Below are positions 57,450-59,460 of a DNA stretch of 64,000 nucleotides, piece after piece. Source of the DNA: Gloeocapsopsis dulcis (lineage in GTDB: Bacteria; Cyanobacteriota; Cyanobacteriia; Cyanobacteriales; Chroococcidiopsidaceae). The stretch is from NCBI RefSeq assembly GCF_032163395.1, contig NZ_CP119968.1, positions 3,064,001-3,128,000 of the forward strand. Direction: 5' to 3'. A program made the position numbers and the translations under genes. The notes beneath the pieces are model-generated. The model did no database searches and had not been told where the DNA came from. It saw only the letters and a program-made list of their open reading frames with translations. How positions within the stretch are numbered: position 1 is the stretch's first letter; each line of letters begins with the position of its first letter.

Positions 57450-58589
57450 TTATGCACTCACTTCCAGTAACGAGGTAAATTTTTCTGGCAAAAATAAAGT
57501 TTGCTTTAACTCTTCTTGAATAATATTAGTGACATTTCCTGCATGCTCCATACTATCAAATAACACTCTAGACAACTCAGAGTACTGCTGTAATATCTGC
57601 TTTTGAGAAACACTAAAACGGCATTTCTGTAGTTCTAAAAATATATCATTTAATTTAGTAGAATTAGCAGTTAAGTCAATAGATAAGTTATGATCTAAAC
57701 CACAAGAAATTTCAGTCTCAATTCCTAGAATGCACTCTATACAAAAAGCTCGAAATGCTGCCGGACTATAGATATTATTAATACTAACAGATTTTTCTTC
57801 TAGCCATGTTAAAAAGGGCTGAACAGATAGTTTCTTCTCAATAAATACATCGATTTTTTGTTTTATCAATATCAGTAGGTAATCTGCATTAGGTAGCATA
57901 GCAGCGACCAAGACACCAATTTGATGCCAACGATTTTCTGTTAATTGCTCAACAAGATACTTAAGAGATTGCTCTATTTTTTTAAAAGCGTAGCCTTCCA
58001 CAATTGCTTTGGCAGCCAAATATTCATGAAAAGAAAGGTCAGAAAATGCATAAATTCCTGGCGTCCATTCACTAAATAGCCTGTGTTGTGCTTGAAGAGA
58101 CTGTAGCACTTGCTTGCTTTGTCTGGTTGCTAACTCTGGTTGAATTTTAGTTTTAGATATTTTTTGGATATATTGAGTAATATACTGCTCTAGTTGCTGC
58201 TGCTTAACAAAGTATTCTCCCTCTACATAAGTCATCCAAGCAAGGTAACTTAATAGACCTTCTTTTTGGTTGAGTGTCATTTTCTTGTAGGTTTCATCTC
58301 CTACATCTTTAGCATCGTCCCACTGCGTTAAAAGAATTTGTAGCCCTGCATCATATAACCGAACGCGACTTGGAGGGATTTCACCTGTTTCCTCAAAGAC
58401 TAAACGCAGTAAAGTTAATAACAAAGGATTACTAATTATTTGTTGAACTATTTCATTTCCTTGAATTTTGGAAGACAAATTCCTCTTTTGATTTTTGAGC
58501 CAATAATATTTGTTTTTTATCTGAATTTGTTCATCAAATTTGATGCTTTTCTTTAAATTTAAAGTTGGCTCTAAGCTGATATTGAGCAT
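57450..58589 (-). CDS. NACHT-family protein lacking its NTPase domain
   Basis: The 379-residue ORF starts MLNISLEPTLNLKKS and joins about residue 45 the post-NTPase part of bacterial NACHT proteins: NPLLLTLLRLVFEETGEIPP, RVRLYDAGLQILLTQWDD, then the winged-helix and helical stretch ending FSDLSFHEYLAAKAIVEG, and a C-terminal helical region. There is no Walker A or B. Only 85 bp separate it from the sigF stop upstream, so the missing NTPase part is not simply out of frame. It is a truncated relic or a protein acting in trans with a partner elsewhere. ATG 58589 has no good ribosome-binding site. Confidence 0.7.
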   Translation of the reverse strand: MLNISLEPTLNLKKSIKFDEQIQIKNKYYWLKNQKRNLSSKIQGNEIVQQIISNPLLLTLLRLVFEETGEIPPSRVRLYDAGLQILLTQWDDAKDVGDETYKKMTLNQKEGLLSYLAWMTYVEGEYFVKQQQLEQYITQYIQKISKTKIQPELATRQSKQVLQSLQAQHRLFSEWTPGIYAFSDLSFHEYLAAKAIVEGYAFKKIEQSLKYLVEQLTENRWHQIGVLVAAMLPNADYLLILIKQKIDVFIEKKLSVQPFLTWLEEKSVSINNIYSPAAFRAFCIECILGIETEISCGLDHNLSIDLTANSTKLNDIFLELQKCRFSVSQKQILQQYSELSRVLFDSMEHAGNVTNIIQEELKQTLFLPEKFTSLLEVSA

Positions 58590-58674
58590 AGTATGTTTAC
58601 TGCTTTAATAATAACTCTATTTTTTAAGCTGCTAACTGTGGTTGCAATTGATGAAAGAACGAACAAGATAGGTG

Positions 58675-59460
58675 TTAAGCACCTGCTGCTAAAGCTGGTG
58701 ATTGTAATAAAGATACTAATTGAGCTTTACCTCTTTGAAGGTAGCGTGTTACTGTCATTGGGCTAGTACCAATATGTTGAGCTGCTTCTTTGCGTGAAAG
58801 TTCTTTTAAGAACACTAATTCAACTGCAATTCTTGTTTTCTCTTCCATCTGACTCATTGCACCTTGGAGCTGTTGACGCTCTTCTTCTTGTTGACGCAAG
58901 CTAGTAGAACGCGGATCAGCAAGTGCTTCACCTAACGTAATTGGACAATCAACATGATGTACAACAGTAGTATCTAAGCTTAAAGTAATGCGGTTTTGAA
59001 TTGCTAACTTACAATCGAGCCATTCTTGTACAGGCACTTGTAAAAAACGAGCAATTTCTAAATCAGTTGGACAACGCCCTAAAGAGGAAGTTAGCTTTTT
59101 ACGAACTTTTTGTCCTTGGTTGTAAATCTCTTGCCAACGGCGAGGAATTTTAACGGCACACGAGCGATCGCGTAAGTAATGAAGAATTTCACCTCGAATA
59201 TAAGGTACAGCAAAAGAGCTGAATGCATATCCTTGCTCAGGGTCAAATCTCTCAATTGCCCGAATCAAACCCAAATAACCTATTTGCTCTAAATCTTCAT
59301 ATGGTTCAGTGCATTGATGACTAAATCGGTGTGCCATTTTTCGCACTAGACCACTATGTAATTTGACTAGTTTATTGCGTAATCTAACTGAGGGCTGTTG
59401 ATGATATGAAATTAGAACTTCCCGTGCTTCTGAGTAGTTAGAATATTGAGTTTTAGGCAT
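58675..59460 (-). CDS. sigF: Group 3 sigma factor SigF
   Basis: The 261-residue sigma factor starts MPKTQYSNYSEAREVLISYH. Region 2 has LVRKMAHRFSHQCTEPYEDL and QIGYLGLIRAIERFD, then RGEILHYLRDRSCAVKIPRR. Region 4 (SRKEAAQHIGTSPMTVTRYL) ends with AQLVSLLQSPALAAGA. This matches SigF, which controls motility and pilus genes in Synechocystis. ATG 59460. Confidence 0.92.
   Translation of the reverse strand: MPKTQYSNYSEAREVLISYHQQPSVRLRNKLVKLHSGLVRKMAHRFSHQCTEPYEDLEQIGYLGLIRAIERFDPEQGYAFSSFAVPYIRGEILHYLRDRSCAVKIPRRWQEIYNQGQKVRKKLTSSLGRCPTDLEIARFLQVPVQEWLDCKLAIQNRITLSLDTTVVHHVDCPITLGEALADPRSTSLRQQEEERQQLQGAMSQMEEKTRIAVELVFLKELSRKEAAQHIGTSPMTVTRYLQRGKAQLVSLLQSPALAAGA

Follow-up and report, generated by a model that had tools for sequence, protein, structure and literature searches.

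Directly behind a sigJ-type sigma factor gene in the window (the whole 64,000-nucleotide stretch of DNA that was analysed) lies an ORF derived from a NACHT protein but lacking the NTPase. This ORF, for which NCP is used as a working name (379 amino acids, 57450-58589), is an intact gene under purifying selection in the window's cyanobacterial family. Its position directly behind sigJ, together with its conservation as an intact gene, makes NCP a candidate regulator of SigJ. As a single gene linked to sigJ, such a candidate would make the question of how SigJ activity is controlled directly testable.

Table 1. Features of the sigJ-NCP region, in coordinates of the window.
Feature	Position	Strand	Basis or remark
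NCP, NTPase-less NACHT-derived protein, 379 aa, ATG start	57450..58589	(-)	ORF, Pfam, profile comparison
NCH2 (PF22727) C-terminal half, profile 49-96 of 96	57486..57629	(-)	Pfam
Asp184 codon, place of the winged-helix His (FSH -> FSD)	58038..58040	(-)	alignment
Pro55 codon, matching the small-domain (GxP-type) proline of NLRs, kept in the window	58425..58427	(-)	alignment
Spacer between sigJ and NCP, 85 bp, sigJ stop to NCP ATG	58590..58674	(-)	
Promoter-like site, 9/12, in or beside the spacer	58635-58608		sites of this kind no more frequent in the region than by chance
Stem of 5 pairs, terminator-like, at the end of sigJ	58684-58670		region has 5 of this kind, 2.0 expected
sigJ-type group 3 sigma factor gene, 261 aa, first of the pair	58675..59460	(-)	NCBIfam, tree

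Anatomy of NCP

Of a NACHT protein, NCP has the end of the small domain, the winged-helix domain and the C-terminal helical region, with NPLLLTLLRLVF representing residues 54-65. When a profile of 15 NCP orthologues was compared with one of 21 full-length NACHT proteins, full-length residues ~323-773 were aligned (hhalign 100%, E 1e-110), and because the alignment begins only at residue ~323, NCP has no counterpart of the sequence up to the NTPase end. For orientation, NACHT spans ~180-343 and NCH2 ~666-769 in the four full-length relatives scanned with Pfam, one of which also has a weak, below cut-off HTH_3 match near the N-terminus. The window NCP has no match to Pfam NACHT (PF05729), and a scan for the Walker A pattern only found GxxxxGK[ST] in none of 15 NCPs (the window protein and 14 orthologues); a looser [AG]x4GK pattern matches once in each of two orthologues, near the N-terminus. 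The preliminary description of a NACHT protein without its NTPase core is thus borne out.

About the second half of the NCH2 profile is matched by the window NCP, at 25.8 bits against a cut-off of 27, and by the three orthologues scanned, at 32.6, 60.7 and 49.2 bits. The loop region that precedes NCH2 is shorter in NCP than in full-length NACHT proteins. No enzymatic motif was seen in NCP, and an Adenyl_transf match of the window protein is weak (E 0.017) and below the Pfam cut-off. Searching the NCP profile against PDB sequences returned only two chance matches (E 0.49 and 0.96), PADLOC gave no match for NCP at E 0.1, and AlphaFold2, run on the window NCP and one relative, gave a mean pLDDT of 35.9, too low for a usable structure.

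The sigma factor gene upstream of NCP

The preliminary description had placed NCP only 85 bp from sigF. The distance stands, but the gene is of the SigJ type. While the window sigma factor scores 374 bits against the NCBIfam 'SigF' model, a better match (408 bits) is found in the same genome at C1:3921306-3922058, and the two proteins are 48% identical. In a tree of 78 sigma rows, 57 second-paralogue rows that include the window sigma are separated from 21 canonical SigF rows by a 100/100 branch. With a stronger SigF elsewhere in the genome and a place in the second clade, identity of the window gene as SigF was rejected. Counterparts at nine loci of another family (f30) are 60.5-70.5% identical to the window sigma.

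As no named SigJ reference is among the tree rows, the name SigJ rests on two papers (PMC2758279, PMC6513891). Their available portions describe SigJ as a second SigF-like copy that adjoins SigF in PCC 7120 and PCC 7942 (PMC2758279), and a SigJ from a Gloeocapsopsis strain with 68.58% identity to Anabaena SigJ (PMC6513891).

In the tree, two additional copies of sigJ that have no NCP have long end branches of 0.49 (L075, genome G012) and 0.26 (L076, genome G009); the end branches of the NCP-linked copies of G012 and G009 are 0.009 and 0.094.

Flanks of the gene pair

The two genes are predicted to form one cotranscribed unit, a prediction that the terminator-like stem at the end of sigJ counts against. 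The further flank of the pair is rearranged across the family while the pair itself persists. A gene of the window with magnesium-chelatase and VWA domains (Pfam) is presumably chlD. In the window, a convergent GNAT acetyltransferase gene is next after NCP, with no pentapeptide-repeat gene there, and a pentapeptide-repeat gene holds this place in two other genomes, G002 and G014 (L094:5202-6740, L092:3785-5335). Several family genomes (L088, L089, L090, L093) have a divergent 242-aa gene next to sigJ, the L089 copy being Bax1-inhibitor-like by Pfam, and at two loci from other families (L047, L084) the gene adjoining sigJ has an N-terminus similar to that of the 242-aa gene.

No site resembling the J-Box, the SigJ promoter consensus as given in the available text of PMC6495340, was found upstream of or just behind sigJ at 19 family loci, a set in which two loci come from a genome or species already represented.

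Conservation of NCP within the family

An intact, standalone NCP orthologue lies directly 3' of sigJ, on the same strand, in 16 of the 19 family genomes, and in 15 of these carriers the sigJ stop and the first NCP ATG are 39-98 bp apart. In the Gloeocapsopsis crepidinum assembly (G001; loci L012 and L045), an A run near the 5' end of NCP, read in L012, shifts the first ATG from the reading frame, so that a GTG at 133 is the earliest in-frame start; a sequencing error, a real shift or slippage may lie behind it. One TAG is flagged in the NCP of G009, yet the frame yields a 364-aa protein that is aligned to its last residue. In G018 (73% complete), NCP is split over three frames, and because a stop is also found in the aligned part of the adjoining sigJ, assembly errors are the likely cause. 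An NCP match is absent from G008 (65% complete). In G016 (97% complete), NCP is missing beside the sigJ-type gene, and a fragment of 266 aa from another part of that genome groups with full-length NACHT proteins in the tree.

Twelve of 13 close pairs of NCPs have dN/dS values of 0.10-0.22 (Nei-Gojobori); the thirteenth has a value of 0.61, at a dS of only 0.04. The window NCP is 59-62% identical to its orthologues in the nearest genera and 34-38% identical to those in more distant genera, and 42 residues are invariant across 15 NCP rows. In an unrooted tree that supports no particular branching order among NCPs, a 100/100 branch has all 16 of them on one side and 38 long NACHT proteins and four other short frames on the other. 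This grouping is consistent with a single origin of the 16 sigJ-linked NCPs.

With 36 full-length proteins as queries, an NTPase part with a Walker A motif was found at none of the 16 NCP loci, and at 15 of them no match starts before full-length residue 250. At the sixteenth (L032), a match from residue 224 crosses two stops and contains no Walker A. The extended family loci L089-L095 hold no stretch besides NCP that matches full-length NACHT proteins. The preliminary description had held that an intact gene at this place in a related strain, together with a lack of conservation of the window copy itself, would refute its reading; a full-length version was looked for, and none of the 16 loci has one. 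Broken NACHT genes from other families (L114-L116) have a different appearance, with the C-terminal half in a frame of its own and the Walker-A-bearing part upstream (about 1.1 kb upstream in L116), and these true relics retain the FSH winged-helix histidine, unlike NCP. Thus, the 16 intact orthologues, dN/dS values well below 1, the single tree group and the absence of an NTPase part together argue that NCP is not a relic.

Distribution of NCP relative to sigJ

Outside the family, an NCP match was absent from all 37 sigJ-type loci selected from 16 other families, with 5-6 kb fetched for each. At three f30 loci (L046, L047, L052), the ORF that follows sigJ is a convergent chlD-like gene, and it is at this kind of site that an insertion would have placed NCP in the window's family. 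Although chlD lies far from sigJ in G009-G012, NCP still adjoins sigJ there. Extra sigJ copies occur in G009-G012, and the two that were read, in G012 (L075) and G009 (L076), are without NCP. Since these copies, the 37 outside loci and G016 all do without it, SigJ has no general need of NCP. The SigJ proteins of NCP carriers differ from others in three special positions only, and hence there is no visible signature of an interface.

Surveys covered 242 genomes from the order and 194 from the phylum, each set being a selection from a larger group; among the matches listed, only family members score above 384 bits. In the phylum survey (194 genomes, to E 1e-60), no match listed from outside the family scores like the sigJ-linked copies (at best 352 bits, against 589 for the latter), and a few shorter open frames are found outside the family, for instance G365:C47 (302 aa) and G087:C2 (479 aa). 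Among matches listed at 1e-20 from the 242 order genomes, 158 of 172 matching genomes lie outside the window's family. Viral contigs yielded one distant relative of the NCP profile, at 24% identity. Full-length relatives in the same genome, which the preliminary description had proposed looking for, amount to one in a protein search, 32% identical to NCP; at E 0.001 the window genome has 13 NACHT matches, nine of which are above the Pfam cut-off.

Residues at the nucleotide-binding site

The 16 NCPs were compared with 36 full-length proteins at 84 columns, from residue 330 onward, that are conserved in the full-length proteins. Thirty of the 84 are retained in at least 90% of NCPs, nine are lost (retained in at most 10%), and the others fall in between; several of the lost columns belong to the deleted loop or the N-terminal edge. 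The winged-helix histidine of the motif YSFSHLTFHEY is found in 35 of 36 full-length proteins and in none of the 16 NCPs, where its place is taken by D (nine), V (five), L (one) or E (one). The small-domain proline is replaced in six of the 16 NCPs (ten P, five S, one Q). NCP was accordingly ruled out as a member of the NACHT NTPase family, having no Pfam NACHT match, no Walker A and, in 16 of 16 proteins, no such histidine.

In HMMER alignments, the FSH histidine of the full-length relatives aligns to the histidine of NLRC4 FFHKSFQEY, in a second stretch that is weak (2.8 bits) but collinear. This NLRC4 residue is taken as His443 by arithmetic only, from residue 351 of 3jbl_K and a 92-residue offset. 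According to the available portions of two papers, the winged-helix histidine lies beside ADP in a Sensor 2-like role and the small-domain proline touches adenine (PMC8283967, PMC2323615). The same portions of PMC2323615 name NLRs without this histidine (CIITA, NAIP, NALP6, NALP8 and NOD5), so loss of the histidine is by itself no proof of lost function.

Covariation of branch rates

Branch lengths for the 16 carriers were compared on a fixed chlD+prfB tree, which offers few independent branches. Relative rates of NCP and SigJ are correlated with a rho of 0.65 (28 branches), which drops to 0.56 when the two stem branches with the fastest rates are left out. The corresponding value for NCP and prfB is 0.39, and that for NCP and chlD is -0.44, the latter being biased downward because chlD makes up most of the yardstick. 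Under normalisation by chlD, the ranges are 0.57-0.76 for SigJ-NCP, 0.50-0.65 for prfB-NCP and 0.49-0.78 for prfB-SigJ, and under normalisation by prfB the SigJ-NCP value falls to 0.28-0.57. The covariation lends mild backing to a pairing of NCP with SigJ.

Possible functions of NCP

The explanation favored here, although tentatively and from sequence evidence, is that NCP may well be a dedicated, NTP-independent partner of SigJ, of the anti-sigma or sigma-chaperone type. The winged-helix/helical lid of a STAND switch would have been captured behind sigJ without the N-terminal part and the NTPase, and the freed lid would function without nucleotide, the nucleotide-contacting histidine being gone from every copy. 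Its protein-binding surface may then have been redirected to SigJ or to the SigJ holoenzyme, such that NCP would restrain, stabilise or release SigJ under stress, in a direction that is not readable from the sequence. We infer that NCP most likely acts on SigJ. No known anti-sigma domain was found in NCP with Pfam or NCBIfam. According to the available portions of PMC6495340, control of SigJ seems to take place at a post-transcriptional level, through a mechanism left undefined, and SigJ could not be expressed in E. coli, perhaps because a factor was lacking there; a protein-binding lid made beside sigJ would fit an anti-sigma factor or a stabilising partner. In the accessible text of two papers, SigJ is reported to govern both exopolysaccharide and desiccation tolerance in Anabaena, and in Nostoc the development of hormogonia (PMC2758279, PMC6495340).

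A bolder version, conceivable but put forward with reserve, is that an NLR-type autoinhibitory lid was separated from the NTPase, gave up the residues that sense nucleotide and was remodelled into a dedicated clamp or stabiliser of SigJ, which would represent a new class of sigma regulator. If true, a STAND switch of the immune type would have lost the engine that drives it and been retained as a regulator of transcription. A search largely without subscription journals found no paper that joins sigJ with NACHT, and none that has bNACHT, NACHT and cyanobacteria together.

Other roles for NCP have to be weighed against a partnership with SigJ. It is doubtful, although still worth considering, that NCP only shares the sigJ locus, as an effector or a stress protein made together with SigJ (on drying, for instance) but acting elsewhere. 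The same-strand arrangement, with its short distance between the sigJ stop and the first ATG in 15 of 16 carriers, would suit such a protein, as would the absence of an anti-sigma domain and the ties of SigJ to desiccation tolerance and exopolysaccharide in the available portions of PMC2758279 and PMC6513891. However, the region retained is the lid of a protein switch in which no enzymatic motif is seen, and the rates of NCP track those of SigJ somewhat more than those of two other genes. The suggestion in the preliminary description that a truncated NACHT protein regulates its full-length relatives is unlikely for NCP, which would then regulate or titrate them as a dominant-negative or scaffold, with the sigJ locus setting expression only. 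Each of the 16 carriers does have at least one full-length relative, and much of the winged-helix/helical core is kept in NCP. Yet the window genome retains NCP with a single detectable relative of 32% identity, while the two congeners have three each, and such relatives are common in the order outside the family (the 158 of 172 genomes among the matches listed) with no sigJ-linked NCP seen there. Moreover, loci L089-L095 offer no other stretch matching full-length NACHT, and the constant neighbour of NCP is sigJ.

The remaining suggestion, a decaying defence relic, is so improbable that for the family it can be regarded as already refuted. Loss of the NTPase and N-terminal part, the fast divergence toward more distant genera (34-38% identity), the broken copy in G018 and the one close pair with a dN/dS of 0.61 are what might be expected of decay. 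Against this, the frame is open in 16 genomes, dN/dS is low in 12 pairs, 42 residues are invariant, and the real relics L114-L116 differ in keeping both a Walker-A NTPase part upstream and the FSH histidine. The G018 break, in a genome 73% complete and with a stop in the adjoining sigJ as well, is likely an assembly error.

Relation to known systems

The closest likeness of NCP is to full-length cyanobacterial NACHT-NCH2 proteins (PF05729 + PF22727, mostly about 740-870 aa), with which it has the winged-helix and C-terminal helical elements in common. NCP differs from them in having neither the N-terminal part nor the NTPase, in the replacement of the histidine in 16 of 16 proteins, in its shortened loop and in its tie to sigJ. 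Through these full-length relatives, which align with NLRC4 including (in the weak stretch) the FSH histidine, NCP can be compared to animal NLRs of the NBD-HD1-WHD-HD2 arrangement, although NCP is without the nucleotide-binding domain. The anti-phage bNACHT/STAND proteins are distant kin, as PADLOC PDC-S60 is matched by two full-length relatives out of the four scanned, whereas NCP has no PADLOC match and has sigJ as a constant neighbour.

Two sigma factor arrangements offer further parallels, as far as the available text of the sources goes. The SapG gene lies directly downstream of sigG, is cotranscribed with it, and its product interacts with SigG (PMC2758279), which gives a cyanobacterial precedent for a sigma partner encoded downstream. 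NCP too comes right after the gene of a group 3 sigma factor, a likeness of position; NCP derives from a NACHT protein, and its binding to SigJ is presumed. In a SigR-type sigma factor of PCC 73102, region 4.2, NB-ARC and TPR_MalT occur in one protein (PMC11119718), and here as well a sigma domain is paired with a STAND module. That protein is a fusion with NB-ARC, whereas the sigJ-NCP pairing has no NTPase and consists of two separate genes.
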